This document shows positions 10,100-41,590 of a stretch of DNA of 64,000 nt, in pieces. The notes under the pieces were generated by a model that had not been told where the DNA came from, did no database searches, and was given only the letters and a program-made list of their open reading frames with translations. The stretch comes from Thermostichus lividus PCC 6715. Its GTDB lineage: Bacteria > Cyanobacteriota > Cyanobacteriia > Thermosynechococcales > Thermosynechococcaceae. The stretch is from the NCBI RefSeq assembly GCF_002754935.1, contig NZ_CP018092.1:1984001-2048000 (forward strand), given 5' to 3'. Numbering within the stretch: position 1 is the first letter of the stretch; every line of letters begins with the position of its first letter. The position numbers were made by a program, and so were the translations under genes.

Positions 10100-11005
10100 C
10101 TACGCCAGCTTTGCTAGGACTGGTTCTACCGAAACGACGTGTTTTGATAAACCTAAGAGGTGAGGAGCCAACCCCAAGGCTAAGCCAATTAATTGGGGTA
10201 GATGTAAAATTGGCAAGTTTAGTTTTTCGCCAATGAGGTGTTCAATTTCTGGCTGCCGGGAATCTAAGTTCAGGTGGCATAGGGGGCAGGGGGTAACAAT
10301 GCAATCTGCCCCAGCGGCGATCGCCCCTTGGAGGCGTTGTGCTGCCATCCGAAAGGCGGCGGGAGTTGCATAGCTAGAGATTGGCCAGCCACAACATTGG
10401 GTACGCCCTGAATACTCAACGGCAGTTGCCCCAAGGGCATCAAAGACATTCTCTAGGGAACTGGGGTGAGTCGGATGATCGAAGGGAAGGGTGCGCTGGG
10501 CGCGAAGCAAATAGCAGCCATAAAAAGCAGCACAGCGTAGGTTGGTTAGGGGACGAGTGACCCGTAAGCGCAATTGCTCTAACCCCACATCACCAATGAT
10601 TGCCCACAGCAAATGTTTGACTTCAGTGGTGCCACGGTAGGGATGGCAACCTTCTGCCTCTAACAGTTGGTTGATGCTATTTACATAGTCGGGGCGATCG
10701 CGCTGGAACTCTTTTAGGCGTTCATCCACATGCCCAATGACTCCTTGGCAGGTACTGCAATGGGTTAATAATGGCAATTCCAACGCTTCAGCAAGGGCAA
10801 TATTGCGGGCATTCACCGTGTCTTCTAACAACCATGAATTTTCCTTAAAGGTGCCTGAGCCACAACACGCTGCCTGTTTCAGTTCAATGAGTTCTATATC
10901 TAAGCGGGGGGCGATCGCCCGGGTGGCAAGATCTAACTCGCGGCAAGCCCCTTGAGCCACACAGCCCGGATAATAGGCATAGCGAAGAGTGGTCATCGAC
11001 AGCAT
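10100..11005 (-). CDS. HdrB-like CCG-domain iron-sulfur protein
   Basis: 301 aa with two cysteine-rich CCG domains. The first has PGC, ACCGSG and CSTCQG (about residues 15-85); the second has YGCYLL, CCGWP and CPLCH (about 165-250). This is the arrangement of heterodisulfide reductase subunit B and the C-subunit of type-E succinate dehydrogenase, which bind non-cubane 4Fe-4S clusters. Cyanobacteria lack coenzyme M, so a role in electron transfer linked to succinate or another dehydrogenase is more likely than true HdrB activity; that is inference. An ATG at 10996 is an equally plausible start. Confidence 0.8.
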   Translation of the reverse strand: MLSMTTLRYAYYPGCVAQGACRELDLATRAIAPRLDIELIELKQAACCGSGTFKENSWLLEDTVNARNIALAEALELPLLTHCSTCQGVIGHVDERLKEFQRDRPDYVNSINQLLEAEGCHPYRGTTEVKHLLWAIIGDVGLEQLRLRVTRPLTNLRCAAFYGCYLLRAQRTLPFDHPTHPSSLENVFDALGATAVEYSGRTQCCGWPISSYATPAAFRMAAQRLQGAIAAGADCIVTPCPLCHLNLDSRQPEIEHLIGEKLNLPILHLPQLIGLALGLAPHLLGLSKHVVSVEPVLAKLA

Positions 11006-11046
11006 CCCTAGCAGGTACTCTTAGTTTATCGAATGTGAGCGGAAAA

Positions 11047-11076
11047 CCCCGTCCGCTTGCGGCGGGGAGGATGTCA
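11047..11076 (+). mobile_element. Relic of an IS200/IS605-type right end
   Basis: A strong hairpin (CCCCGTCCGC, TT, GCGGCGGGG) is followed by AGGATGTCAAG. The same hairpin-plus-GTCAA layout ends the elements near 21,043 and, on the other strand, 54,750. No transposase remains here. Identity as an IS605-type end is inferred from this recurrence. Confidence 0.5.
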
Positions 11077-11120
11077 AGCGCAATGAGGCCAATATCGAGC
11101 AGAAGATCATCCTGCCTCTG

Positions 11121-11423
11121 CTACAGAAGAAAATCGTCAAGGGGAGCGTGGGGAGAGCGAATGGGCAGCACTTGCTCTAGGTTGGATTGGGGCTGCGCAA
11201 TAATTTGGTGAGACAGAATCGGTGGCTGCGAGTGCGATCGCACCGCCTGAACTGCTGCATTGACCTCCGCAACTGCGCCACGAATCACCAGCGTCCAGTA
11301 GCCACTTCCAATCCCTTCACAACTCACCAGTTGTACATTAGCTGCTTTCACCAAGGTGTCAGCAACCGCAAGTGCTGCTGGGTATCCCATGACCTGAATC
11401 ATTCCTACGGCTTGTTGGCTCAT
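11121..11423 (-). CDS. Carboxysome shell protein, CcmK family (BMC-H)
   Basis: 100 aa single BMC domain. The N-terminus QAVGMIQVMGYPAALAVADT and the segment WTLVIRGAVAEVNAAVQAV are diagnostic of hexamer-forming BMC-H shell proteins. The pore region reads EGIGSGYW rather than the KIGSGR of the major CcmK1/2 proteins, and the C-terminal tail is short. It is therefore a minor paralogue, not the main facet protein. It is away from any ccm operon in this window, as satellite ccmK genes often are. Confidence 0.85.
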   Translation of the reverse strand: MSQQAVGMIQVMGYPAALAVADTLVKAANVQLVSCEGIGSGYWTLVIRGAVAEVNAAVQAVRSHSQPPILSHQIIAQPQSNLEQVLPIRSPHAPLDDFLL

Positions 11424-11587
11424 GACACCCTATCCCTAAGAGCTAGCACCTTCGGCTGCGATTCTAATCTGTTCCAAGGCAATGCTAACGAGGAGGCGAC
11501 AGAAATCTACCCCCTGCTCGAAGTTGCACAGCCGTCTTATGAGGAAGGTTGTTTATGGCAAAAGATAATCATTAAGGTGCCAGCAGG

Positions 11588-11728
11588 TCAAGACTTAGGC
11601 TGAAAGGCAGCAAACCAGTAGAGCGTGAGAACACCCAAGGTGCCAAGGTTCCGAAGCCAACTGCCGCCCCAAGCATAGAGGGCGACTAAGGATACCACGA
11701 CAGCTACAGTCAGAACCGTAAAGCGCAT
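11588..11728 (-). CDS. 46-aa small membrane protein, function unknown
   Basis: ATG at 11728-11726, TGA at 11590-11588. A hydrophobic stretch from residue 4 to about 19 (TVLTVAVVVSLVALYAW) is followed by a Gly-Ser-Trp turn and a second weakly hydrophobic stretch (TLGVLTLYWFAAF). GGGAG precedes the start at good spacing (AGGGAGCTAGT). Size and layout resemble the small accessory subunits of photosynthetic or NDH-1 complexes, but I cannot assign it to a known one. Confidence 0.55.
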   Translation of the reverse strand: MRFTVLTVAVVVSLVALYAWGGSWLRNLGTLGVLTLYWFAAFQPKS

Positions 11729-11768
11729 ACTAGCTCCCTGCAAGTATCTTTATTCCCTTATTAATTAA

Positions 11769-11952
11769 GTTTCCATTCGATCGCCTTCCCCATGAAGAGG
11801 AAGGTGTATTGGTGTACTAATACAGGGAGGGGCTATGCACCAGTTTCCATTCGATCGCCTTCCCCATGAAGAGGAAGGGGGTACCACACCGTGTACAAAA
11901 GTGAGGACGAGTTCATGTTTCCATTCGATCGCCTTCCCCATGAAGAGGAAGG
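11769..11952 (-). CRISPR. Minimal CRISPR array: three 36-nt repeats, two 38-nt spacers
   Basis: Three identical repeats at 11769-11804, 11843-11878 and 11917-11952 begin GTTTCCATTCGATCGCC on the + strand and contain an inverted pair CCTTCC/GGAAGG. Spacers are 11805-11842 and 11879-11916. On the minus strand the repeat ends in ATGGAAAC, the usual 8-nt crRNA tag ending, so transcription from the right is likely and the leader would lie beyond 11,952. No cas gene occurs anywhere in the window. With only two spacers, a degenerate tandem repeat is not fully excluded. Confidence 0.8.
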
Positions 11953-12274
11953 AGTACCCCTATACTAGCCGCTCCCTGAGCGAACTGCAACCCCCTATTC
12001 CGAGGGATCCCCGTTGCAAGCAAGCAATGTTTTTTATACGACATAGTATAAAATCTTCAAAGCCGCTTCCTGAGGGACTCCGAGGGATCCAACGCATCAA
12101 TGGGGTATCCAAGCCATTCGGCAGATCCCTCGGAGCTTGCGGCATACTCTAAACAAGGGTGGAGTCGCGAATCTAATCTGCTGTTTCGCTACCGAAAAGC
12201 TAATGGAAGGAGTACTCAGAGCTAGGCAGAGCAGCCTATGGCAACTTCTTGCCAAAGTGTCACAGCAGGCAAAA
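11953..12274. repeat. Intergenic stretch with inverted repeats, possible CRISPR leader side
   Basis: No gene is visible. A perfect 12-bp inverted pair, CTCCGAGGGATC at 12078-12089 and its complement at 12124-12135, could form a hairpin. A further CCGAGGGATCC copy lies at 12000-12010. An 8-bp stem TTTTATAC/GTATAAAA sits at 12032-12053. AGCCGCTCCCTGAG near 11968 recurs as AGCCGCTTCCTGAG near 12061, so the segment contains a small degenerate direct repeat. Confidence 0.5.
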
Positions 12275-12472
12275 CTAGCTGTGGCTAGCCTCCATCCACT
12301 CGAAAATGCGATCCAACTGCTCAAGGCTGACTAGGCCATACTGCCACAGTACCACTGGCAACAGGTTGACTTTCTCATCGCACTGCTTGAGGCCAAAGTT
12401 AATGGCAGAGGTGGGCAGTGCCATCTCCCGCTGCAGAAAATCAATAAGCTGTGTCCAACGTGGCTTTTTCAT
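12275..12472 (-). CDS. DUF2949 family protein
   Basis: 65 aa from the ATG at 12472 (MKKPRWTQLIDFLQREMALP); an upstream in-frame Met would add seven residues. The pattern FLQREMALPTSAI...LPVVLWQYGLVSLEQLDRIFEW is the cyanobacterial DUF2949 signature. It is small, soluble and of unknown function. No partner gene is close enough to suggest an operon. Confidence 0.8.
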   Translation of the reverse strand: MKKPRWTQLIDFLQREMALPTSAINFGLKQCDEKVNLLPVVLWQYGLVSLEQLDRIFEWMEASHS

Positions 12473-12660
12473 AATGTCTATTAAGTACCACATTCCTCTC
12501 TATGCTAAGGAGGAATCTGAGAAAATGCAACATTTCGTTACAAATGCATTGTAGAATGTTACACGTTGCTGAGTACTGTCGCCAGCCCCAAGGCCGTCTT
12601 GGCTCTTGGATGCTAGTGTGATGGAACCATCAAGGAAGCGCATCCCCCAACAGGAGGATT

Positions 12661-13683
12661 TTAAGGGGCGATCGCGCGGCCTTCAGCATCTTCTAGGACA
12701 AAGCCAGCATCGGCAATCATCTGCCAGTCTTGATGGGGTGCCTGCCCCGCCGTTGTTAAATAGTCCCCCACAAAGATGGAGTTAGCGGCATACAGGCCAA
12801 GGGGCTGTAGGGAGCGTAGGTGCACCTCGCGACCCCCGGCAATGCGAATCTCTTGGTGAGGCAACAAAAAGCGAAAAAGTGTAAGAATTCGTAAACATTG
12901 ACGCGGCGTGAGATGATCGTGTGCCGCAAAGGGGGTACCGGCAATGGGGATTAAGAAATTCACCGGCACACTGGTAACCTCCATCTGCCGCAGAGCAAGG
13001 GCTAAATCTATCACATCCTCATCGGATTCCCCCATACCGAGGATGCCGCCGGAGCAGGTGGTAATCCCCGCTGCCTTAATATGGTTGAGGGTCTGGGCGC
13101 GATCGCCAAAGGTATGGGTGGTACAAATCTCGCTGTGGTAGTTCGGTGAGGTGTTCAGGTTATGGTTCACCCGGTCCACCCCCGCTGCGGCTAACTGCTG
13201 GGTTTGGGTTGCCGAGAGTAAGCCTAAACAGGCGCAAATTTTGAGATCGTAGCGTTCCTTTACCGCTTTTACTGCCGCAAGTACCTGCTCAAAGACTTTT
13301 TCGCTGGGCGATCGCCCCGAAATGACCATGCAAAAGGTGCCCGCCTTCAGTGCCGCCGCCCGCTCAGCCGCCGCCAAAATCTTTTCTTGGGAGAGCAGAG
13401 GATACTTTTCAATCTCAGCGGTGGAGATTTTAGATTGGGAGCAGTAGTGGCAATCTTCGGGACACAGGCCACTCTGGGCATTCAGCAGGTAGTGAAGCCG
13501 CACCCGGTTGCCCCAATAGTAATGCCGCACCCGATAGGCCGCTGCCAATTGCGCCAGTAGCTCCGTATCAGGGGCACGCAGAACGGCGCGGGCTTGATCA
13601 CGGCTGAGAAGGTCACCCGCAAGGGCAAGATCTGCCATGGCTTGCCAACGATCGGTGAGGGGTACGGCTGCAGTCATCGTCAT
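12661..13683 (-). CDS. bioB: Biotin synthase
   Basis: 340 aa radical-SAM enzyme that inserts sulfur into dethiobiotin in the last step of biotin synthesis. The 4Fe-4S motif CPEDCHYC holds C74, C78 and C81. [18 protein letters not shown] and the AGGREVH region give the rest of the family fingerprint, including the Arg that ligates the 2Fe-2S cluster. The ATG lies 3 bp after the pheT stop, so the two are co-oriented and probably co-transcribed. Confidence 0.95.
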
Positions 13684-29326: not shown

Positions 29327-29345
29327 GGAGAGGGTTGGGTGAGGG
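29237..29345 (+). repeat. SPQGEG repeat cluster at the 3' end of the helicase gene
   Basis: Three hairpin units CCCCAGGGAGAAGGGG or variants in a row (29,237-29,345). They supply the last codons and the stop of the helicase gene and most of the intergenic DNA before the methylase. Confidence 0.85.
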
Positions 29346-29373
29346 CAGCCATAGGTTTAGGAGGGATTCAACA

Positions 29374-32300
29374 ATGGAAAAGTCAAGCGCCATTCGATTA
29401 CTAACCGACACGCTACAGCGTCCCTTTGACGAGGCACAGTTTCGGCAATTTGCCCGCAACTTGGTCAAAGACCTGGATGAATCCAAGGCATTCCAAGCTC
29501 AGGGCAACTATATTAAGGATGCCTACAAGCGCCAGGTACGGCAGTATAAGCGCATTGGGCAGTACGTCGATCCTGATGGCAATACGATCGATGTGTTGGT
29601 GGTGCGGTTGCAGCAGCCGACATCTCTGGATCGGGCACGCACCATGCAGCGCAACTTTGTTGCTCAATACCTGCAAGATCGCAATCAAAAAGAAGCGGCG
29701 TTGGTAGCGTACACCGCTGATGGCTCGCTGGATTGGCGCTTTTCCCTGGTTCGTTTGGATTATCGGCTAGAACAGCAGGCAGACGGCAGCTATAAACCCA
29801 AGAAGGAGGTCACAGCGGCAAGGCGATCGTCCTTTCTGGTGGGGCAAACAGAGCCGAATCACACAGCGCAGCAGCAGTTATTGCCGCTGTTATTGAACGA
29901 TCGCCAGAATCCGACTCTGGATGAATTAGAAGCGGCGTTCAATATTGAATCAGTTACGCAGGAATTTTTTGAGCAATACAAAAACCTGTTTCTCCAGGTG
30001 CGGGATGAGGTCGAAACCCTACTTCAGACCGATCCGGTCATCGCTACTGAATTTACTCAGAAACAGATTGACCCCGCCAATTTTGCCAAAAAGCTCTTGG
30101 GGCAAATTGTCTTTCTGTATTTTCTGCAAAAGAAAGGCTGGTTGGGAGTGGAGCCGGGGCAGCCCTGGGGCAGTGGCGCGAAGGATTTTCTGCGGCGCTT
30201 GTTTCGGCGGGAGAATGTGCAATATGACAATTTCTTTAACGATGTATTGGAGCCGTTGTTTTACCAAGCTTTAGCGATCAATCGCGGTCGTGAAGCGCTG
30301 TATGAACTGCCCGGATGTCGTCAGCCCTGCAAGATCCCATTTTTGAATGGGGGCTTGTTTGAACCGATCGCTGGCTATGACTGGCAAACCACGAATATTT
30401 TAATCGCCAACGCCACGATTCAAAACATTCTGGATACCTTTGACCTGTATAACTTCACGGTGCGGGAAGATGAGCCACTGGATAAGGAAGTGGCGGTTGA
30501 TCCGGAGATGTTGGGGAAAGTGTTTGAGAATTTGCTGGAGGTGAAAGACCGCAAGTCTAGGGGTGCCTTCTACACGCCCCGTGAGATTGTGCATTATATG
30601 TGTCAGGAGAGTTTGATTAACTATCTGGACACGACGATTCATCAGGTGCCCCGTGGCGATCTGGAGCGGTTGATTCGGCAAGGGGAACGGGCGATCGAGA
30701 ATGATGCTGTGGTGGTGCAAAAGGGCAGCGAAACCGCAACCTATCAGTTTCAGGTGCCGGAGTTGGTGCGAACCCATGCGGCAGAAATTGACCAAGCGTT
30801 GGCAAATATCAAAATCTGCGACCCGGCGATCGGCTCTGGGGCATTTCCGGTGGGGATGATGCAGGAGATTGTGAAGGTGCGGAGCGTGTTGACGACCTAT
30901 TTACCCCTCACCCCCAACCCCTCTCTCTCCCTCACCCCCAACCCCTCTCTCTCCCTCACCCCCAGCCCCTCTCCCCAGGGAGAGGGGAGTTTGCCCTCAC
31001 CCCCAGCCCCTCTCCCTAGGGAGAGGGGAGCCGGATCTCCCCCTTCTTCTTGGGGAGAAGGGGGTCGGGGGGATGAGGGCGATACTGTTGCAGGTAAGTT
31101 ACGGCAAATTCCGCGTGCCCTGTTGGAGCGTGCTCGTGAACTACGGTTGGAGCAAACCCCTGCTGAACAACTTCTATGGGAATGCTTGCGCGATCGCAAA
31201 CTCAACAATTTCAAGTTCAGACGGCAGCACAATATTGGTCGGTATATTGCGGACTTTTATTGCCACGAAGCCAAACTAGTGATTGAACTGGATGGTGGCA
31301 TTCATCAAGCCCAAATTGAACGAGATCGCGATCGGGATGCCTGGATGCAGTCTCAAAATCTCAGAGTTCTGCGACTGACTAACGAGCAAGTTTTAGAGAA
31401 TTTAGAAACGGTTCTGCAAGCAATCCTAAATGCCCTCACCCCCAACCTCTCTCCTTGGGGAGAGGGGAGTTTGCCCTCACCCCCAGCCCCTCTCCCTAGG
31501 GAGAGGGGAGCCGGATCTCCCCCTTCTTCTTGGGGAGAAGGGGGTCGGGGGGATGAGGGTCGCTCTGCCTACGCCTTCAAGCGCCATGCCATCCAGTCCT
31601 CAATCTACGGTGTGGATATTGACCCCGGTGCGGTGGATATTGCTAAGTTGCGGCTGTGGCTGTCGTTAGTAGTGGATGAAGAAGACTATGAAAGCATTAA
31701 GCCATTGCCCAACCTGGACTACAAAATTGTCTGCGGTAACTCGTTACTGAGTGTGGAGAAAAACCTGCTGAATTATCAGGTGTTTGCCGAGTTAGAGCAG
31801 CGGAAACAGGAATACTTTGAAGAAACCAACCCAGACCGTAAGGCGGCATTACGCACCACCATTCAAGGGCTACTTCAAACCATCACTAACCAAGCTGAAA
31901 TCTTTGATTTTGAGGTGTATTTCAGCGAGGTGTTTCAAAAACAGGGTGGTTTTGATGTGGTGATTGGCAATCCGCCCTATGTGCGCCAAGAACAAATTAA
32001 ACACCTTAAAGATTTACTAAAACCACACTACGAATCCTTCACTGGTACTGCCGATCTCTATGTATTTTTCTATGAAAAAGGCTTAAATTTGTTGCGGGAA
32101 AATGGCGTTTTAACCTACATTTCTTCTAACAAATGGTTCCGAGCCGCCTATGGCAAAAAGCTGCGCCAACTGATCACCCGTGAAACCCAACTTCAGCAAA
32201 TTATTGACTTTGGCGATGCGCCTGTGTTTGCGGCCATTGCTTATCCCACGATCGTGATCACCCAGAAAGGCAAGCCCTCATCCCCCAACCCCTTCTCCCA

Positions 32301-33372
32301 GCCCTCATCCCCCAACCCATTCTCCCTAGGGGAGAAGGGGAGTAAGACAGATCCGGTTCCCCTCTCCCTGGGGAGAGGGGCTAGGGGTGAGGGACACTTC
32401 CGCGCCTTGAACTGGCAACCTGGACAACCCATCAGCCAGTTTGAAACCGTGGTACAATCCCAATCCTTTACCATGCCCCAACAGGCACTCACCGCTGATG
32501 GCTGGCAGTTTGCCGATGCCACTGCCCTAAACCTGTTAGAAAAACTGCGCAAAGCTGGAACCCCGTTAGGCGAATATGTCAACAATCGGTTTTACTACGG
32601 GATTAAAACAGGTTGCAATGAAGCGTTTGTGGTGGATCGCGCCACCCGTGACAGACTCATTGCCGAACACCCCTCCTCTGCTGAAGTCCTCAAACCTTTT
32701 TTGCGGGGACGCGATGTTAAACGCTGGACAGTGGATTATCAAGATTTATGGTTACTGTTTATTCCTTGGCATTTTCCATTACATCTTGATCCCACCATTG
32801 AAGGAGCATCTAAAAAAGCAGAACAAGCATTCAAAGAACAATATCCAGCGATCTATAAGCATTTGCTGGGTTTCAAAACAGAACTTTCTAATCGAAATAA
32901 AGCTGAAACAGGTATTCGATACGAATGGTATGCACTGCAACGATGTGCTGCTACCTACTGGCAGGAGTTTGAGCGATCGAAGATTTTTATCCCAGCAATT
33001 GCTCAATCCGTTGAGTATGCGGCAGACTCTTCAGGGTATTACGGCAATGATAAAACCAATATTTGTGTTACTGATGAAGTTGAGTTTTTACTAGGAATCC
33101 TAAATTCCAAGCTAATGTGGTGGTTTATTCAACAAATTGCAGCATCTAAGCAAGGTGGCTTTTATGAATTCAAGCCGATGTATGTCACCCAAATCCCCAT
33201 TCCGCCCGCTTCACCCGCCGACAAAACCCGCATCGAAGCCCTCGTCCAGCAGTGCATTGATGCTCAGGGAAAAAATGTCACCGCCTACGAAGCTGAAATT
33301 GACGACATTGTTGCCCGTCTTTATGGTTTGACCGAGGCAGAACGCGCCATCATCGCAGGGAGAGAAGGATGA
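29374..33372 (+). CDS. Eco57I-type N6-adenine DNA methylase with an embedded DUF559 endonuclease domain
   Basis: 1332 aa from the ATG at 29374 (AGGAGG at 29359-29364). Motif I DPAIGSGAF is near residue 482 and the catalytic NPPY near 864, so methylation of adenine is expected. A TaqI/Eco57I-like specificity domain follows (FLRGRDVKRW; IPIPPASPADK). Between motif I and NPPY sits an insertion of about 220 residues made of SPQGEG repeats around a DUF559 PD-(D/E)XK-like domain (about 574-684: FKFRRQHNIGRYIADFYC, KLVIELDGGIH). A further repeat interrupts residues about 968-1007. The stop overlaps the next start (ATGA), so translation is coupled to a small gene pair. Whether the enzyme works with these inserts is unknown. 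Confidence 0.85.
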   Translation: MEKSSAIRLLTDTLQRPFDEAQFRQFARNLVKDLDESKAFQAQGNYIKDAYKRQVRQYKRIGQYVDPDGNTIDVLVVRLQQPTSLDRARTMQRNFVAQYLQDRNQKEAALVAYTADGSLDWRFSLVRLDYRLEQQADGSYKPKKEVTAARRSSFLVGQTEPNHTAQQQLLPLLLNDRQNPTLDELEAAFNIESVTQEFFEQYKNLFLQVRDEVETLLQTDPVIATEFTQKQIDPANFAKKLLGQIVFLYFLQKKGWLGVEPGQPWGSGAKDFLRRLFRRENVQYDNFFNDVLEPLFYQALAINRGREALYELPGCRQPCKIPFLNGGLFEPIAGYDWQTTNILIANATIQNILDTFDLYNFTVREDEPLDKEVAVDPEMLGKVFENLLEVKDRKSRGAFYTPREIVHYMCQESLINYLDTTIHQVPRGDLERLIRQGERAIENDAVVVQKGSETATYQFQVPELVRTHAAEIDQALANIKICDPAIGSGAFPVGMMQEIVKVRSVLTTYLPLTPNPSLSLTPNPSLSLTPSPSPQGEGSLPSPPAPLPRERGAGSPPSSWGEGGRGDEGDTVAGKLRQIPRALLERARELRLEQTPAEQLLWECLRDRKLNNFKFRRQHNIGRYIADFYCHEAKLVIELDGGIHQAQIERDRDRDAWMQSQNLRVLRLTNEQVLENLETVLQAILNALTPNLSPWGEGSLPSPPAPLPRERGAGSPPSSWGEGGRGDEGRSAYAFKRHAIQSSIYGVDIDPGAVDIAKLRLWLSLVVDEEDYESIKPLPNLDYKIVCGNSLLSVEKNLLNYQVFAELEQRKQEYFEETNPDRKAALRTTIQGLLQTITNQAEIFDFEVYFSEVFQKQGGFDVVIGNPPYVRQEQIKHLKDLLKPHYESFTGTADLYVFFYEKGLNLLRENGVLTYISSNKWFRAAYGKKLRQLITRETQLQQIIDFGDAPVFAAIAYPTIVITQKGKPSSPNPFSQPSSPNPFSLGEKGSKTDPVPLSLGRGARGEGHFRALNWQPGQPISQFETVVQSQSFTMPQQALTADGWQFADATALNLLEKLRKAGTPLGEYVNNRFYYGIKTGCNEAFVVDRATRDRLIAEHPSSAEVLKPFLRGRDVKRWTVDYQDLWLLFIPWHFPLHLDPTIEGASKKAEQAFKEQYPAIYKHLLGFKTELSNRNKAETGIRYEWYALQRCAATYWQEFERSKIFIPAIAQSVEYAADSSGYYGNDKTNICVTDEVEFLLGILNSKLMWWFIQQIAASKQGGFYEFKPMYVTQIPIPPASPADKTRIEALVQQCIDAQGKNVTAYEAEIDDIVARLYGLTEAERAIIAGREG
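30904..31079 (+). repeat. SPQGEG repeat block left of the DUF559 insert
   Basis: Starts with three tandem CTCACCCCCAACCCCTCTC-like units, then two hairpin units, ending GGGGGATGAGGG. Its last 102 bp recur exactly 480 bp downstream. Confidence 0.9.
30978..31559 (+). mobile_element. Putative mobile cassette: DUF559 domain between 102-bp perfect direct repeats
   Basis: The 102-bp blocks 30978-31079 and 31458-31559 are identical base for base, at an offset of exactly 480 bp (160 codons). The unique part between them encodes a DUF559 endonuclease domain of about 110 aa with the acidic-Asp and FRRQH elements of that family. Because the offset is a multiple of three, recombination between the repeats would remove the domain and leave the methylase frame intact. 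DUF559 proteins are related to Vsr-type nucleases; mobility of this unit is inference. Confidence 0.7.
31433..31559 (+). repeat. SPQGEG repeat block right of the DUF559 insert
   Basis: CCCTCACCCCCAACC at the left, two hairpin units, GGGGGATGAGGG at the right. The final 102 bp match the left-hand block exactly. Confidence 0.9.
32275..32393 (+). repeat. SPQGEG repeat block in the methylase specificity region
   Basis: Two CCCTCATCCCCCAACCC starts, a CTCCCTAGGGGAGAAGGGG hairpin, then a second hairpin in the opposite reading (CTCCCTGGGGAGAGG...GGTGAGGG). It is read in frame as NPFSQPSSPNPFSLGEKG. Confidence 0.85.
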
Positions 33373-33674
33373 GTAAATTTGAAATCCTCACCCCGTTAGG
33401 CTTTCGTGTTCGCACCTCAGAAGAGTACTGGCAAAAATTGATCATCAAACATCCAGACATCGCCGATTTGGAGATGGAAGTCATCCAAACCCTGGCTCAT
33501 CCAGACGAAATCCGTCGGAGCAGCCGCGATCCCAACATCATTTTGTTTTATCTCACCCTCAAAGCAAAACGTTGGGTTGTTGCGGTGGTGAGGCGGCTCA
33601 ACGGAGACGGATTTCTGATCACAGCCTACCAAACAGACGCAATTAAAGAAGGAGATTTAATATGGCACAAATAA
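33369..33674 (+). CDS. Small toxin-like protein coupled to the methylase
   Basis: 101 aa. Start overlaps the methylase stop (ATGA) and the end overlaps the next gene by 13 bp. The pattern (SEEYWQKLIIKHPDI, AHPDEIRRSSRDPNIILFY, RWVVAVVRR, GFLITAYQTD) resembles phage-type BECR-fold nuclease relatives (RelE/EndoU-like) that pair with DUF2283 proteins in cyanobacteria. I infer a toxin-antitoxin-like role from this pairing and the overlap. An immunity or specificity accessory of the methylase is an alternative. Confidence 0.65.
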   Translation: MSKFEILTPLGFRVRTSEEYWQKLIIKHPDIADLEMEVIQTLAHPDEIRRSSRDPNIILFYLTLKAKRWVVAVVRRLNGDGFLITAYQTDAIKEGDLIWHK

Positions 33675-33889
33675 AAATCTACTACGAGCCAGAAATGGAA
33701 TTACTCACCATATTTTGGCAGCCACCCCGCAAAAATCAAATTGTGACCGAACTGGGTGATGGGGTAATTTTAATTAAAGACGAAACCACAGGCGAACCCA
33801 TTGGCATGGAAATTCTCGCCTATCATCCTAATGACAATCGGTTTGACACCGTGAGCGTAGAAATGGGACGACTCGCTGAAATTACTTAG
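33662..33889 (+). CDS. DUF2283 family protein, antitoxin-like
   Basis: 75 aa. IKIYYEPEMELLTIFW at the start and GDGVILIKDETTGEPIGMEIL in the middle match the DUF2283 pattern. Such proteins usually sit next to DUF4258 or similar small proteins. Overlaps the preceding gene by 13 bp and so is translated with it. Confidence 0.75.
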   Translation: MAQIKIYYEPEMELLTIFWQPPRKNQIVTELGDGVILIKDETTGEPIGMEILAYHPNDNRFDTVSVEMGRLAEIT

Positions 33890-33904
33890 CCACGGAGCAG
33901 ATCA

Positions 33905-34132
33905 ATGGCAAAACCTATGAGGTGCCCAGGTGATCCGCAAATCCCCACTTCCCCCGCCTCACCCGCCGACAGAGCCAGCATCGCAACCCTCGTCCAGCAG
34001 TGCCTCACCGCCCAGGGGCAAGCCGTCGCCCCCTACGAAGCTGAAATTGACGACATTGTTGCCCGTCTTTATGGTTTGACCGAGGCAGAACGCGCCATCA
34101 TCGCAGGGAGGGACAATGATCGACGGGTTTGA
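33905..34132 (+). pseudogene. Relic of a second methylase C-terminus
   Basis: Reads SPASPADRASIATLVQQC and then EAEIDDIVARLYGLTEAER, the same as the last residues of the intact methylase. The last 79 bp (34032-34110) are identical to 33284-33362, while the part before it has diverged like a paralogue. No upstream methylase remains; the ATG at 33905 is probably fortuitous. It is followed by its own toxin/antitoxin-like pair, mirroring the arrangement after the intact gene. Confidence 0.8.
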
Positions 34133-34364
34133 ACTCTCTGACCATGCCCGCTTCCAGATGCAAGAACGAAACATTCAGCCATCCTGGCTCACGGAAACCC
34201 TTTCTGCGCCCGATCGGCTTTTGCCCCTTGCCGATTCTCATGGCAACACCCATTATCTAAAACAGATTTCAGATTTTGGAGGTAGATGGCTGCGAGTGAT
34301 TGTCAACCCAACGGTTAATCCCCAACGAGTTGTTACGGTCTTTTTTGATAGGAGAGTTAAATGA
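34116..34364 (+). CDS. DUF4258 family protein, toxin-like
   Basis: 82 aa. FELSDHARFQMQERNI at the N-terminus and RVIVNPTVNPQRVVTVFFDRR at the C-terminus are the DUF4258 signature, a family related to RelE-like small toxins. Its end overlaps the next start by 4 bp (ATGA). It follows the methylase relic, which suggests it was once coupled to that methylase. Confidence 0.8.
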   Translation: MIDGFELSDHARFQMQERNIQPSWLTETLSAPDRLLPLADSHGNTHYLKQISDFGGRWLRVIVNPTVNPQRVVTVFFDRRVK

Positions 34365-34561: not shown

Positions 34562-34720
34562 TGATAAAGAGAGAATATGTTGATTTCCATTGCCTCCACC
34601 TCACCCTAGCCAATTGTAAACAACAACTCCAGCAACACGCCAGAGTTTTGAGAGCTATCAGCTTAACTCGGCTTGACAGGACGTTGTAGCGATCGTGGTT
34701 CTAGGTTGTTCGGGAGAACT

Positions 34721-34805
34721 GTCTAACAACCGCATGCACCGGAACGGCAAGGCGATCGGTAAGGTAGCAAAGGTTATCTGCGTCCGGTGATGCTAGCCGT
34801 TATGT
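34721..34805 (+). repeat. attC-1
   Basis: R'' GTCTAAC, L'' CATGCACCGGA pairs with L' TCCGGTGATG leaving the extra-helical G, R' GTTATGT at 34799. The 160 bp between the last DUF2283 gene and this site hold no gene. Whether the preceding toxin-antitoxin pair was itself a cassette is unclear. Confidence 0.85.
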
Positions 34806-34978
34806 CGCCAGTGCCAGAGCTGTGCCTAGTCAAGATTGTTGGTGGAGGGGCGCTGGGGGTTGTGGGTAGCAGAGGCGATCGGTGCAAAAATTTACACAAC
34901 ATAACAAATCACTGCACCCGACTTGGAGCTATACTTTCAGCATTACCCAAAACTACTGGTGGCGGGTGAGTTCAGCCG
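34800..34978 (+). other. Cassette without convincing gene (C2)
   Basis: About 180 bp. A 55-codon frame starting MSPVPELCLV runs through the attC, and a same-length frame exists in cassette C5. Nearly every difference between the two changes the amino acid, so coding is doubtful. The unit starts TTATGTCGCCAG and ends with TTTACACAACATAAC, like C5. Confidence 0.6.
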
Positions 34979-34984
34979 TTAGCC
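34899..34984 (+). repeat. attC-2
   Basis: R'' ACATAAC, L'' ACTGCACCCG against L' CGGGTGAGT with the bulged G, R' GTTAGCC at 34978-34984. Confidence 0.9.
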
Positions 34985-35052
34985 TGTAAATTTGGGAACC
35001 CTTTGGGTGCAAGAGTGTTGCTTTTGACTCATTACTGAAGGAAATAAAGAGT

Positions 35053-35397
35053 ATGGATCAACTCGTGAATATAATTGCTGCACTTGGTGTACCTGGTTTA
35101 GTGCTCGTAGTTGCTATGGCGGTTACAGGTTGGGCGGGTGCTGCTGCATTAACTGCGGCTTTAGCCGTTCTTGGAGGTCCATTTGGGATGCTTGGAGGAA
35201 TTGCAGTTCTTGGAATTCTTGGACTAATCTCAAAAGGTTTGTCAGACTATGGGTTTGAAGCTATTTTCAAAGCAACTGTAGACGAGTTAAGGAGAAAAGG
35301 TAAGTCCAAAGTCGATATAGAGCAGGAGGTTGAATCATATCCAATTTCACGAGATTTGAAGCTGAAGATCAAGGATTACCTCCGGACAATGGCATAG
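35053..35397 (+). CDS. Glycine-rich membrane protein of an integron cassette
   Basis: 114 aa. Residues 5-75 form two or three Gly/Ala-rich hydrophobic helices (VPGLVLVVAMAVTGWAGAAALTAALAVLGG; GIAVLGILGLIS) with glycine-zipper spacing. A charged helical tail follows (VDELRRKGKSKVDIEQEVESYP). This resembles small pore-forming or bacteriocin-like peptides and also phage-tail-tape-like fragments; function unknown. GAAGGAAAT precedes the ATG. It shares its cassette with the next gene. Confidence 0.7.
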   Translation: MDQLVNIIAALGVPGLVLVVAMAVTGWAGAAALTAALAVLGGPFGMLGGIAVLGILGLISKGLSDYGFEAIFKATVDELRRKGKSKVDIEQEVESYPISRDLKLKIKDYLRTMA

Positions 35398-35482
35398 TTA
35401 TTGATTGTGTCGTATACCGAAAGGGGGGATTCAATACGCCTCATCAGCGCAAGAGAAGTGACACGAACCGAGCGAGAAGCCT

Positions 35483-35740
35483 ATGAAGAGGGATAAGTCA
35501 GAAATGGAAGATGATTTACGGGCAGAGTATGACTTCAAGAGCCTCCGAGTCAGAAAATTAGGTTCTGGAAGAAAAAGCTTTGGTGGAACCACTGTACGGT
35601 TAGAACCTGATGTTGCAGAGATGTTTCCTAGTGCTGATGCGGTTAATGAGGCGCTACGGTTCTTGATTAGAGTGATGCGGGATAATCAGGCGATCGCTCC
35701 AACGGCACAGGCTAACAATTCAAATGCAGCGGACGATTGA
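35483..35740 (+). CDS. Antitoxin-like hypothetical protein, 3' end inside attC-3
   Basis: 85 aa. EMEDDLRAEYDFKSLRVRKLG, then TTVRLEPDVAEMFPSADAVNEALRFLIRV, resembles the small cyanobacterial proteins that serve as CopG/BrnA-type antitoxins. A short acidic N-terminus and a helix-turn-helix-like end support DNA binding, but no toxin is adjacent. The last ten codons form the R'' side of attC-3, as is common for integron cassette genes. Confidence 0.65.
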   Translation: MKRDKSEMEDDLRAEYDFKSLRVRKLGSGRKSFGGTTVRLEPDVAEMFPSADAVNEALRFLIRVMRDNQAIAPTAQANNSNAADD

Positions 35741-35796
35741 TAGTTATTGGTGCTGAGTTCGAGGTTGCTTGTCGCCGCTGATTTGAGCCGTTAGCC
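35710..35796 (+). repeat. attC-3
   Basis: R'' GGCTAAC, L'' AATGCAGCGG against L' CCGCTGATT with the extra G, R' GTTAGCC at 35790. Confidence 0.9.
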
Positions 35797-36059
35797 CTCA
35801 GTGCTCCGGTTCTGTCAGCTTTCGGGTAGGTAGGCGATTCGCCCCCAATTGCAGAGGCTCGGTTCTTCTAGCTTTCGGTCAACCCGAAAACTCCCAGGTG
35901 CTTCTGAGTGAGCCGCAAAGGTTAAGCAGTGCTAGGTTTGGGTCAACCGTTCGAGGTTCCGAGAGGTGTCGGGGGGCGATCGCCGAAAGGTGTCGGTACG
36001 GGGAGATGAGGGTGATGCCGAGAGGTTGCGGCGCTGGGAGATGAGGGGCGATCGCCAAG
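35797..36059 (+). other. Cassette without recognisable gene (C4)
   Basis: No credible reading frame on the + strand. It contains repeated short words (CTTTCGG, GGGGAGATGAGGG, GGCGATCGCC twice), suggesting a structured RNA, promoter cassette or decayed gene. An 80-codon frame on the minus strand has Arg/Ser-rich sequence typical of shadow translation. Confidence 0.5.
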
Positions 36060-36146
36060 AGCTAACACCTCGCTGCAACGGACGGAACAGAGATTCTGGC
36101 TGAAACCGAGAGCGATATCGCCCGCCGTTGAGCTTCACCGTTATGT
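36060..36146 (+). repeat. attC-4
   Basis: R'' AGCTAAC, L'' GCTGCAACGG against L' CCGTTGAGC with the bulged G, R' GTTATGT at 36140. Confidence 0.88.
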
Positions 36147-36316
36147 CGCCAGCGCCAGAGCTGTGCCTAGTCAAGATTGTTGGTGAAGAGGCGCTGGAGT
36201 CTGTGGGTAATGAAGGCGATCAGTTCAAAAATTTACACAACATAACAAATCACTGCACCCGACCTTATGGTAAGCCACTACTATCCAGACTCAATGACGG
36301 CGGGTGAGTTCAGCGG
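36141..36316 (+). other. Cassette without convincing gene (C5), sister of C2
   Basis: About 176 bp. Its first about 105 bp align without gaps to cassette C2, with about 15 substitutions, mostly G-to-A or similar. Its loop differs completely. It shares the start TTATGTCGCCAG with C2 and, apart from one base, with C7. Confidence 0.6.
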
Positions 36317-36322
36317 TTATCT
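36240..36322 (+). repeat. attC-5
   Basis: R'' ACATAAC, L'' ACTGCACCCG against L' CGGGTGAGT with the bulged G, R' GTTATCT at 36316. It lies 61 bp before the Argonaute ATG. Confidence 0.9.
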
Positions 36323-36383
36323 CTACAAGAATGGGCAACAGTCTTCATCAATGCTATAGTTGTTAAAAAATTTGTATCCCCCC

Positions 36384-38597
36384 ATGGCTCCCTTGGAAAA
36401 CCTTCAGCAAACTTCAGTGGTACTTAATCGCTATCTAGTAAGACCTCTAGAGGAAAAAGATTTAACAATTCATGAGTATCAATGTCATTTCGCTCAACTC
36501 CCGCAACAAGGCGATGAACAAAGAGCAGTTTCCAGTATTTGTTACAAGCTAGGAGTCACTGCTGTTAGATTAGGCAGTCGAATCATCACTAGAGAAGAAG
36601 TCAGTCCCGCAAAAATGAGAAGTGATGATTGGGAGTTATTTAAGACAGCTACTAGAAAACTAGATTGTAGTAATACCTGCGAAAGAAAAGCCCTAGAAAC
36701 CTTTGAGCGTAGAGTTTTAGAGCAAGGACTAAAAAAGTACTTTAACAAAACTGAGATTGAAAGAGCCTCGGAAGGTGGACTGATTTGGTGGATAACAGGT
36801 CATGAGGGGGCGGAGAAATGTGGAGATGCTTGGGAAGTACACAGAGGGAGAAGAATAGATGTCGTTATCGATTCAGATGGCAACCTCTACCTAGAAATCG
36901 ATATACATCATCGCTTCTATACCCCTTGGACACTGCATCAATGGCTAGAAGAGTATTCCGATGTACCTATCAGTTATGTTAGGAACACATATAAAGATAA
37001 AAATAATAATTACATTATGTGGGAGTACCAAGGAGTCTCTGATCAATCGCCAAAACAAGTCATGTTAGAAGGATTGGGTATTAGTCTAGCGGATTACCAT
37101 CGTAATAATGGAGCTACTGACGCAGAAATAAATAATTCTCGTGTTGTGTTTGTTAAAAGAGCCAATGATCGGAAAGCAAAGCCTGTAGCACATCTATCTC
37201 AAAGGCTATCGCCAAGCTTAACAATGGAGATGCTGGCAAACATTGCTGATGCTGAAAGCGGAGAAGAAAGTCAACAAATCAAAGAAGTTTTTGAGTTCAT
37301 CAGAAAAAGTTTAGATGTTCGCATAAAGAACTCCACAAAGACAGCACATACAATCCTTGAGAAGATTTATAGAATTTCTGGCGAAGCTGAAGCTATAAGG
37401 GTAGATGGATATATTTTGCCAACAGCTAAATTACTGGCATCTAATGATCAGCAAGTAGATAAGGTTGCTCAAGTCCGATATAAGGGATGTGCCAGAGTAG
37501 GTGAAACAAAGTTTGGCTGTCTTAATCTTTACAATGAAAAGTACCAATATCCTGAAGAAGTGCGTAAATGTTTGTTGGAAATCGCAAACAATAGCAACAC
37601 GACGATAGAAATAGACTCCTATCGTGCACAACAAGATTTTCCTGAGAGTGAACTAGACAAACAAATGTTCTGGCAAAACTGGTCTGATGAAGGCATTAAA
37701 ACAGTTTTAGTGGTAATGCCATGGTCACCCAATGAGCGCAAACAAAAAATTCGGGTGCAAGCACTTCAAGCAGGAATAGCTACTCAGTTTATTGTGCCAA
37801 TGCCAAAGGCAGACTCTTATAAATATAAAGCTCTGAATGTTGTTTTAGGAATTTTGTGTAAAGCTGGTTGGCAACCCATACGCCTAGAGCCTTTGGATCA
37901 TCCTGAATGTGCTGATCTAATTATTGGTTTTGATACAGGAACCAATCGAGAGCTTTACTATGGCACTTCTGCATTTGCGGTTCTTGCGGACGGGCAAAGC
38001 TTAGGATGGGAGTTGCCTGATGTTCAACGAGGAGAAACCTTTTCTGGAAAAGCGATTTGGCAAACGGTATCAAAGTTAGTTCTTAAATTTCATGACAGTT
38101 GCAAGCGTTACCCCAAAAAACTACTTTTGATGAGAGATGGATTAGTTCAGGAAGGAGAATTTCAGCAAACGATAGAAGAGCTTGCAAAGAAAAATATAGC
38201 TGTTGATGTTGTTGGAGTACGCAAAAGCGGTGCTGGAAGAATGGGAAAAGAGGATATTCATGCAAATGGGGAAGTGGTATACCGTGATGCCAAAATTGGT
38301 ACTGTCATTTTTACTCCAAAAGAAAAGTCATTCACTTTAGTAACGAGTCAACCAATCAACCAGAATATTGGCAGTGTAAGACCCCTTCGGGTAGTTCATG
38401 AGTACGGCAATACATCTCTGGAAATGATTGCTTTGCAAACTTATCATCTATCTCAGTTGCACCCTGCTAGCGGGTTTCGCTCTTGTCGATTACCTTGGGT
38501 ATTGCATCTTGCAGACAGAAGTAGTAAAGAGTTTCAACGCATAGGGCAAATTAGTATTTTGCAAAATATCAGTCGTGAAAAATTGATTGCTGTCTGA
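36384..38597 (+). CDS. Prokaryotic Argonaute (long pAgo), integron-borne
   Basis: 737 aa from the ATG at 36384, close to the 738 aa of the Synechococcus elongatus protein; a TTG at 36360 would add eight residues. The PIWI domain has the complete catalytic set: D517 (IIGFDTG), glutamate finger E543 (LGWELP), D585 (LLMRDG) and D711 (HLADRSS). DNA- or RNA-guided cleavage is therefore expected. N-terminal, PAZ-like (about 150-280) and MID regions (about 390-500, with YKALNVVLGILCKAGWQP) can be followed in order. No nearby cas, Schlafen or SIR2 partner is seen. The gene is AT-rich, I saw no HIP1 sites in it, and it is the sole gene of its cassette. Confidence 0.93.
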   Translation: MAPLENLQQTSVVLNRYLVRPLEEKDLTIHEYQCHFAQLPQQGDEQRAVSSICYKLGVTAVRLGSRIITREEVSPAKMRSDDWELFKTATRKLDCSNTCERKALETFERRVLEQGLKKYFNKTEIERASEGGLIWWITGHEGAEKCGDAWEVHRGRRIDVVIDSDGNLYLEIDIHHRFYTPWTLHQWLEEYSDVPISYVRNTYKDKNNNYIMWEYQGVSDQSPKQVMLEGLGISLADYHRNNGATDAEINNSRVVFVKRANDRKAKPVAHLSQRLSPSLTMEMLANIADAESGEESQQIKEVFEFIRKSLDVRIKNSTKTAHTILEKIYRISGEAEAIRVDGYILPTAKLLASNDQQVDKVAQVRYKGCARVGETKFGCLNLYNEKYQYPEEVRKCLLEIANNSNTTIEIDSYRAQQDFPESELDKQMFWQNWSDEGIKTVLVVMPWSPNERKQKIRVQALQAGIATQFIVPMPKADSYKYKALNVVLGILCKAGWQPIRLEPLDHPECADLIIGFDTGTNRELYYGTSAFAVLADGQSLGWELPDVQRGETFSGKAIWQTVSKLVLKFHDSCKRYPKKLLLMRDGLVQEGEFQQTIEELAKKNIAVDVVGVRKSGAGRMGKEDIHANGEVVYRDAKIGTVIFTPKEKSFTLVTSQPINQNIGSVRPLRVVHEYGNTSLEMIALQTYHLSQLHPASGFRSCRLPWVLHLADRSSKEFQRIGQISILQNISREKLIAV

Positions 38598-38613
38598 CAA
38601 TTGCAAGCAGTAG

Positions 38614-38699
38614 AGATAACAAATCACTGCACCCGTCCATATGTTAGACTATTCATATCATCCAAAACCTCTGGTGGCGGGTGAGTTCAGCCGTTATGT
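38614..38699 (+). repeat. attC-6
   Basis: R'' AGATAAC, L'' ACTGCACCCG against L' CGGGTGAGT with the bulged G, R' GTTATGT at 38693. It starts 17 bp after the Argonaute stop. Confidence 0.9.
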
Positions 38700-38906
38700 T
38701 GCCAGCGCAATAGCGAGATGGTCGGCGGGGCGAGCTTCTAGATTTTCGGCTTCGTTGGTAGTTGGTGGGGCGACCCGTGCGCTGGAATCGGTGAAAGTCC
38801 GGGGCGATAGGCGTAGAAGTTACACAACATAACAAGTCGCTGCACCTGACCCAGTGTTATACTCTGAACAGTTCCCAAAGCTGTTAGTAGCAGGTGAGCT
38901 TAGCCG
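38694..38906 (+). other. Cassette without recognisable gene (C7)
   Basis: 213 bp with stops in every frame after a few codons. It starts TTATGTTGCCAGCGC and ends GTTACACAACATAAC, the same edges as C2 and C5, with an unrelated middle. Confidence 0.55.
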
Positions 38907-38912
38907 TTAGAC
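38827..38912 (+). repeat. attC-7
   Basis: R'' ACATAAC, L'' GCTGCACCTG against L' CAGGTGAGC with the bulged G, R' GTTAGAC at 38906. Last attC seen. Confidence 0.9.
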
Positions 38913-38994
38913 AGCAACCAGTTCTGGGTATTTTTCTTCTGTAGCTAAAATTTCTGCTCTTATAAACAGTGAGGGGCAAGTCAAATTAGATAGA

Positions 38995-39762
38995 TTGGCA
39001 GTCTTGATTGACGCTGAAAATGCAAGTGCAAAGCTAGTTGAACCATTACTTAAGGAGATTGCTAGATACGGTAGTGCTCATGTGAAGAGGATTTATGGAG
39101 ATTGGACAAACCAATCGCTTAGTAGTTGGAAGTTAAAATTACATAAATTCGCTATTCAACCTATTCAACAATTTCGATATACGACAGGTAAAAATTCGAC
39201 AGATAGCGCACTTATTATTGATGCAATGGATTTGCTGTATACAAAGAATTTTGATGGTTTCTGTATCGTATCTAGTGATAGTGACTTTACTAGACTAGCG
39301 AGTCGCATTAGAGAATCAGGTTTAGTTGTTTATGGCTTTGGAGAGAGCAAAACACCCGAAGCTTTTGTTAGTGCTTGTGACAAGTTTACATACACTGAAA
39401 TCTTTGAGAACGTGGAAAGCCTTGAACACAGAACTGAGCAAGCCCATGACCTTAAAGTTGAACTTCCCCAGCAGTTAGAGCAAGAAACAATTAATCAGCA
39501 ATCGATCTTTCCTAAAGAAATGCTTAATTTACTGAGAGATGTATATGAAAATATTTCGGGAGACGATGGTTGGGCTTATTTAGGTCCCCTAGGTTCACAG
39601 ATTCAGAAACTCTCTCCATCATTTGATTCAAGAAATTATGGGTATAAAAAGCTTGGAGAATTAGTACATAAGATGATTCAGCATGGACGTGGAGTACGTA
39701 ATCACCTTGACAGCTGTTTTGGGTGCATTGCTTCCCTGGATTTTGCTCAAACTTGGCTTTGA
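38995..39762 (+). CDS. NYN-domain putative RNase with C-terminal LOTUS/OST-HTH domain, 3' end truncated
   Basis: 255 aa from a TTG; no ATG exists upstream in frame, so the start is uncertain. The NYN (PIN-like) domain keeps its acidic residues: VLIDAENAS, DSALIIDAMDLL and VSSDSDFTRLA. A LOTUS/OST-HTH domain follows (about 175-240: LLRDVYENISGDDGWAYLGPLGSQIQKLSPSFDSRNYGYKKLGELV in pieces). The family fits RNA cleavage with RNA-binding by LOTUS. After about residue 230 the sequence leaves the family and runs into the next frame, and no attC follows. The cassette was therefore cut when it joined the MgtC-side DNA. Confidence 0.75.
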   Translation: MAVLIDAENASAKLVEPLLKEIARYGSAHVKRIYGDWTNQSLSSWKLKLHKFAIQPIQQFRYTTGKNSTDSALIIDAMDLLYTKNFDGFCIVSSDSDFTRLASRIRESGLVVYGFGESKTPEAFVSACDKFTYTEIFENVESLEHRTEQAHDLKVELPQQLEQETINQQSIFPKEMLNLLRDVYENISGDDGWAYLGPLGSQIQKLSPSFDSRNYGYKKLGELVHKMIQHGRGVRNHLDSCFGCIASLDFAQTWL

Positions 39763-41002: not shown

Positions 41003-41058
41003 ATGAACAAGTTTCAATCAACTTCATAGTTTTCATAATTTTGACGATCTGCTCCTGA

Positions 41059-41590
41059 CTGGCAGCTTATTGCTGGCTTTTGCGAGGCGATCTGTGTTTG
41101 ACTCGTTACTTGCATCCAAAATTGGATCGCTTGTAATTCTGTGGCTATTTTTCTAGAAATTGGCGATCGCCATTTGCGCTTGCTTTCGATCTTAACCATC
41201 CAGTCAATCACATTTAGTTCGGCTCAACTTTGACTGGTAGTTGAAGTGATTGCTGAGCGCGAATAAATGAATCTGTCAGTCAACCAGTTGTTTTGGAATC
41301 TTTGAAAATCTGACTATTTAACAACTGGCAGCTTATTGCTGGCTTTTGCGAGGCGATCTGTGTTTGACTCGTTACTTGCATCCAAAATTGGATCGCTTGT
41401 AATTCTGTGGCTATTTTTCTAGAAATTGGCGATCGCCATTTGCGCTTGCTTTCGATCTTAACCATCCAGTCAATCACATTTAGTTCGGCTCAACTTTGAC
41501 TGGTAGTTGAAGTGATTGCTGAGCGCGAATAAATGAATCTGTCAGTCAACCAGTTGTTTTGGAATCTTTGAAAATCTGACTATTTAACAA
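41059..41590 (+). repeat. Perfect tandem duplication, 2 x 266 bp, in front of mgtA
   Basis: Units 41059-41324 and 41325-41590 read the same, starting CTGGCAGCTTATTG and ending GACTATTTAACAA. Each holds, on the minus strand, a broken gene fragment beginning VIDWMVKIESKRKW, not recognised, with one HIP1 site inside. The second unit ends one base before the GAGGAGG of mgtA, so the duplication forms the mgtA 5' region. It fills most of the gap 40,940-41,603. Confidence 0.9.

Follow-up and report, generated by a model that had tools for sequence, protein, structure and literature searches.

A predicted-active long-A Argonaute gene carried as a probable single-gene integron cassette in cyanobacteria

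Introduction

Can a full-length prokaryotic Argonaute (pAgo) travel between bacterial lineages as an integron cassette? The question is raised by a 64,000-nucleotide stretch of Thermostichus lividus PCC 6715 (NZ_CP018092.1, positions 1,984,001 to 2,048,000; hereafter the window), in which a long-A pAgo gene lies in a tandem array of attC recombination sites. An initial annotation, made from the letters of this DNA, had described the gene as a catalytically complete Argonaute standing alone in a cassette between the fifth and sixth attC sites, and had proposed that such a cassette could spread it between cells. Here we compare this locus with its counterparts in other cyanobacteria.

Results

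The Argonaute gene lies in a unit with exact and recurrent boundaries

Seven attC sites (attC-A to attC-G, Table 1) follow one another in the same orientation within 4.2 kb of the window (34.7–38.9 kb), and a scan of all 64 kb with R1, a covariance model made solely from the window sites, found no attC outside this array. The Argonaute is the sole gene between attC-E and attC-F, the fifth and sixth sites, as first annotated; the spacing to the upstream site is 61 bp and to the downstream site about 16 bp. In this genome, the chance that a random same-strand attC starts no more than 40 bp from a given stop codon is about 7e-5.

The same cassette is present in five other cyanobacterial genomes. 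With cut points set as G/TT in the R' box (the slash marks the cut), comparison with two of these, G044 and UBA999, places its ends in the window: homology starts at G36316/T36317 and fades just past the GTTA at 38693-38697. In all compared contexts the left boundary is exactly G/TTATCTC and the right boundary is at the GTTA of the cassette's own attC, and the left neighbor differs each time. The copy of G044 (family f17, in the genus of Gloeomargaritales VI4D9) is 97% identical in protein and is preceded by a different attC, 80% identical to attC-E across the adjoining 84 bp; from GTTATCTC onward the two genomes are 100% identical for at least 70 bp, and at the right end identity stays at 100% through the downstream attC as far as GTTAT and is then lost. 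In UBA999 (G231, family f24), whose Argonaute is 86% identical, homology likewise starts at GTTATCTC, and the left neighbor is an attI-like site, not an attC. In G008, of the same genus as the window, the protein is 80% identical; an unrelated attC precedes copy b at the same boundary, copy a retains the downstream attC, and the only two attC sites detected in that genome adjoin its Argonaute copies.

A G/TT-to-G/TT unit that varies in position between genomes is the signature of integron integrase (IntI)-type site-specific recombination. On the strength of these boundaries and of known IntI chemistry, the locus is very probably a catalytically complete long-A pAgo packaged as a single integron cassette and moved by such recombination. 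The recurrence of the boundaries in independent genomes bears out the single-gene cassette first annotated, with one amendment concerning the array: since intI is absent from this genome, the array is a cluster of attC sites lacking integron-integrases (CALIN), without the intI and attI with cassette promoter (Pc) in cis that make a complete integron.

Several of the compared copies have features of their own. The two G008 copies (C10:18383-20551 and 32147-34315) are near-identical, lie 13.8 kb apart and stem from a 2.25-kb duplication (99.8%), a complete attC being retained at opposite ends of the two. Differences between the window protein and the G044 copy (L036:7872-10079) cluster, by eye, around residues 213-266 in PAZ, a pattern resembling the exchange of a short tract. 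In the G044 neighborhood (L036:159-7236 and 10225-13276), one side of the cassette encodes a Cas3-like helicase, a WYL-domain protein and a fragment of a PD-(D/E)XK nuclease; the opposite side encodes two large proteins that match no Pfam family.

The cassette gene encodes a complete long-A Argonaute

The reading frame is open over its full length, and an in-frame TTG at 36360 offers an alternative start that would add eight residues. A sequence search matched Thermus thermophilus Argonaute (TtAgo) over residues 6-735 (E = 3e-75), Pfam identified a PAZ_3 domain (E = 3.6e-30), and the PADLOC pAgo model scored 1039 bits. An AlphaFold2 model (mean predicted local distance difference test score, pLDDT, 84.7) had guide- and target-bound TtAgo as its top fold match (E ~1e-59). 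The generic Piwi family PF02171 had zero matches in this genome and is thus unsuited as a test for this Argonaute group, for which we used TtAgo, PADLOC and the fold match.

We aligned the protein with 31 homologs and TtAgo. D517, D585 and D711 correspond to TtAgo D478, D546 and D660, and the glutamate finger is E551 (TtAgo E512), invariant across the homologs aligned, which completes the DEDX tetrad as D517-E551-D585-D711. The initial annotation had chosen the same three aspartates together with E543; that glutamate aligns to TtAgo T504 and is the only one of its four residues to fall outside the active site. Among the relatives the fourth tetrad residue is D or H, compatible with the DEDX rule. 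The MID phosphate-binding residues, flagged earlier as a point to check, are conserved: K453, R457, Q468 and K493 match TtAgo R418, K422, Q433 and K457, and TtAgo N436 falls opposite a gap. With PAZ, MID and PIWI all present, the protein is a catalytically complete long-A pAgo, predicted from its sequence to be active. This genome also encodes a second long-A Argonaute (G000:C1:2303621-2305759, L048), 51% identical, of DEDH type and in attC-free surroundings.

Several observations weigh against the reading of a mobile, functional cassette. We found no intI in this genome, so that movement here would be past or need help. In VI4D9 the cassette sits in a large array, with its Argonaute interrupted by an insertion sequence with a DDE transposase, and in a metagenome-assembled genome of Oscillatoriaceae an Argonaute with an internal deletion is followed by attC; the gene is therefore not always retained. 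Neither attC model placed a site adjoining any Argonaute homolog of 68% identity or less whose flanks were examined, those of the same genus included, which makes the cassette form the rarer one.

The missing integrase and the two broken copies would also suit a passenger Argonaute in decay, drifting unexpressed in a CALIN and now without function in a cassette that is itself real, as would the dN/dS (ratio of nonsynonymous to synonymous substitution rates) of 0.46 between the window and G044, a value drawn from few changes. Yet in five copies (window, G044, UBA999 and the two of G008) the reading frame is unbroken and none of the four catalytic residues is lost, and over longer distances dN/dS is 0.15-0.39; the full range among intact copies from different genomes, 0.15-0.46, is consistent with constraint on the Argonaute. 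The leader also contains a promoter-like sequence with an extended -10 element. Its promoter scan was not significant against shuffled sequences, such matches being frequent by chance, and its TGCTATA(G/A)T is preserved in other cassette copies; it may act as a promoter. Together these points make present decay an unlikely account, though the most serious of the alternatives.

The repeats have the structure and context of attC sites

R1 scores on the window sites are circular, because the model was built from those sites alone. An Rfam scan returned tRNAs only, with no attC match at the gathering threshold, so the evidence that the sites are attC was drawn from purpose-built models. The bottom strands of the window sites form long imperfect hairpins with conserved R boxes, an extrahelical base and a variable loop. 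L-stem pairing amounts to 96% over 29 sites, and six of nine pairs carry compensatory (both-side) changes. For the whole structure, pairing is 90% and falls to 24-47% when it is shifted by 1-3 columns. Independent support comes from another genome, G254, where a full-length IntI (TIGR02249, 473 bits, cut-off 265) and its attI-like region are directly followed by a six-site array recognized by R1. Within the genus, G010 has a degraded intI remnant and an attC array.

Palindromic repeats could also belong to another dispersed hairpin element, resembling miniature inverted-repeat transposable elements or repetitive extragenic palindromes, with the Argonaute merely caught between copies and moved by homologous recombination. 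Such an element would fit a genome without intI or Rfam attC match, in which two of the nine R1-type sites are singletons outside the array and some intervals between sites hold no gene. The association with IntI and attI in G254 argues against it, as does the breaking of homology at the R' G/TT in four contexts and not randomly inside the repeat, and the left neighbor in UBA999 is no repeat copy. We regard this explanation as very improbable.

The cassette has almost certainly crossed between cyanobacterial lineages

The Argonaute is far more similar between distant genomes than their core genes: an NdhD-type core NDH-1 subunit is 62% identical between this genome and G044 and 60% between this genome and UBA999, against 97% and 86% for the Argonaute. 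In a tree, the cassette copies group in a single clade (support 100/99), which spans three families and stands apart from the non-cassette Argonautes of the same genus. The cassette form occurs in 2/8 genomes of G044's family and 1/38 of G231's family. The cassette has almost certainly moved between lineages by integron recombination, as these sequences and the comparative breakpoints indicate, in line with the spread first proposed.

Ordinary chromosomal inheritance, with a genus-wide Argonaute that an attC array happened to enclose in this strain, is the least probable reading of all: all ten other searched genomes of the genus do have an Argonaute homolog or fragment, but these mostly form separate clades (six at 60-64%, G010 and G009 in another at 41-49%, G006 a fragment), the nearest intact relatives are those of other families and of G008 with its adjoining attC sites, the genome holds its second, non-cassette Argonaute besides, and both tree and breakpoints contradict it. 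Nor does the same gene occur in a homologous non-integron context in close relatives, which the initial annotation had named as grounds for rejection; the same-genus non-integron homologs are at most 64% identical.

In UBA999 the cassette adjoins an attI-like site

The left flank of the UBA999 cassette has further copies in that genome, one of them upstream of a full-length intI on contig C5, and it aligns with regions upstream of the full-length IntI genes of G231 and G254. The conserved stretch of this intI-attI alignment ends with ATTAATACCTAG, the cut and TTA. With an attI-like flank, the Argonaute is in first-cassette position there. A promoter-like (Pc-like) pair, TTGCGT-17-GATAAT (hexamers and spacing by eye), is directed toward it, and Pc may drive the Argonaute in UBA999. 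The contig with this Argonaute cassette also carries a truncated N-terminal fragment of intI.

An empty-site search found no clean empty site for this insertion, and showed the left flank to be a repeated, attI-like sequence. We had considered integration at a secondary site (attG) and dropped it in view of the alignment of the flank with IntI-linked attI regions. MgtC did not serve to locate an empty site in the genus, since the window holds a second copy of it and not the genus-wide one.

At least four more attI-like repeats of about 300 bp are dispersed in UBA999 (L101:3956-4266, L102:9965-10273, L103:8280-8569 and L104:7888-8192). An attC lies about 0.1-2 kb or less from each of them, and the sole full-length intI found sits elsewhere (C5). 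This arrangement points to multiple attI platforms, on which a single integrase might act in trans.

Proposed mechanism

In a cell carrying IntI, the cassette would be excised as a circle by way of the folded bottom strand of its attC, and the circle would insert at attI or at another attC. The comparison of genomes shows that it has gone into attC arrays and also, in UBA999, into an attI-like site. In the present genome it would stay fixed in the CALIN unless an outside integrase or homologous recombination moved it. Expression would probably come from the short leader of the cassette, or from Pc when beside attI. The protein is most likely TtAgo/SeAgo-like, loading short 5'-phosphorylated DNA guides via MID, with the 3' end held in PAZ, and is predicted to cut complementary invading DNA (plasmids, transforming DNA, phage) at its tetrad. 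By analogy with TtAgo and SeAgo, it would act as a stand-alone DNA-guided DNA nuclease. More speculatively, the cassette could be a positionally regulated mobile immune gene, stored unused in attC arrays and activated when an integrase brings it to attI/Pc, as its position in UBA999 suggests, so that a guide-programmed nuclease would be exchanged among cyanobacterial families through a shared attC type; we offer this as a tentative possibility.

Array components and other features of the window

Relatives of the gene-less cassettes in G044 and VI4D9 mark them as array parts common to these genomes (Table 1). The R1 scan of the window found no attC after the NYN and OST-HTH/LOTUS gene that ends the array.

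Table 1. Coordinates of the Argonaute cassette and of the surrounding attC array in the window
Feature	Position	Strand	Details
Long-A prokaryotic Argonaute gene	36384..38597	+	737 aa; ATG at 36384; N-PAZ-MID-PIWI
Argonaute integron cassette	36317..38693	+	2,377 bp; G36316/T36317 (R' of attC-E) to G38693/T38694 (R' of attC-F)
Promoter-like sequence in cassette leader	36332..36360	+	TGGGCA-17-TATAGT; extended -10 TG; 9/12 match
attC-A	34720..34806	+	cut after G34799; R1 67.9 bits; hairpin
attC-B	34898..34985	+	cut after G34978; R1 90.1 bits; hairpin
attC-C	35709..35797	+	cut after G35790; R1 74.8 bits; hairpin
attC-D	36059..36147	+	cut after G36140; R1 68.2 bits; hairpin
attC-E, directly upstream of Argonaute cassette	36239..36323	+	cut after G36316; R1 76.9 bits; hairpin; junction comparison
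attC-F, Argonaute cassette's own site	38613..38700	+	cut after G38693; R1 88.6 bits; identical through R' in G044
attC-G, last site of array	38826..38913	+	cut after G38906; R1 89.4 bits; hairpin
Gene-less cassette, attC-A cut to attC-B cut	34800..34978	+	85% identical over 148 bp to gene-less cassette upstream of Argonaute
Cassette with two small open reading frames	34979..35790	+	frames 35053-35397 and 35483-35740; no family match
Cassette without convincing gene	35791..36140	+	
Gene-less cassette directly upstream of Argonaute cassette	36141..36316	+	related sequence precedes Argonaute in G044 and VI4D9
Gene-less cassette downstream of Argonaute	38694..38906	+	92% identical copy in VI4D9 array (L002:2622-2841)
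Terminal array segment with NYN + OST-HTH/LOTUS protein	38907..39762	+	open reading frame 38995-39762 from TTG; Pfam NYN 9.6e-39, OST-HTH 9.5e-13

Elsewhere in the window, a Type IIG restriction-methylase gene (29335-33372) contains an in-frame DUF559 segment (residues 597-701) ahead of its Eco57I methylase match. This segment is flanked by iterated PSPQGEG / SPPAPLPRERG repeats, and the neighboring PLD/SNF2 helicase has similar ones. A 266-bp exact tandem duplication (41058-41589) lies upstream of a P-type ATPase gene.

Discussion

The vehicle for a proposed horizontal transfer of Argonaute can here be read from sequence: it is a cassette whose recombination boundaries are exact in several lineages. 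Integron-borne defense genes are described as size-limited, and this locus shows that a guide-programmed nuclease of full size can be among the cargo of integrons. Related cyanobacteria with intact IntI, attI and attC offer a natural system for studying Argonaute capture and expression. We found no report of a pAgo integron cassette, or of any vehicle for this transfer, in the open literature searched, which does not prove priority, primary work of 2025 on integron defense being outside its scope.

TtAgo, the nearest solved relative, is itself a long-A protein that shares domain order, tetrad, MID residues and fold with the window Argonaute at about 28% identity in a structural alignment; to our knowledge, it is not known as an integron cassette. 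SeAgo and the predicted-active cyanobacterial long-A pAgos, including those of Thermosynechococcus, belong by their group description to the same broad TtAgo-like group with PAZ and the DEDX tetrad (PMC10653904). SeAgo reduces natural transformation and RSF1010 plasmid maintenance (PMC10653904). Cyanobacterial pAgos are known to have a patchy distribution. The SeAgo paper proposes horizontal inheritance; its section on distribution names no integron vehicle, whereas the window Argonaute has one in its cassette.

Both intI and attC are known from Cyanobacteria (PMC2426708, PMC8352920), and integrons are established reservoirs of small defense cassettes (PMC12409362). The anti-phage cassettes that Darracq, Kieffer and Getz studied in integrons, chromosomal as well as mobile (reviewed in PMC12409362), likewise place a defense gene on an attC cassette moved by the integron, although they are described as streamlined and small and were examined in Vibrio and mobile integrons, whereas the window cassette carries a full-size 737-aa Argonaute in cyanobacteria. 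DdmE of the V. cholerae DdmDE system (PMC12409362) is similarly Argonaute-like, borne by a mobile element and directed against plasmids; unlike the window Argonaute cassette, it resides on the island VPI-2, not in an integron, and works with a partner effector, DdmD.
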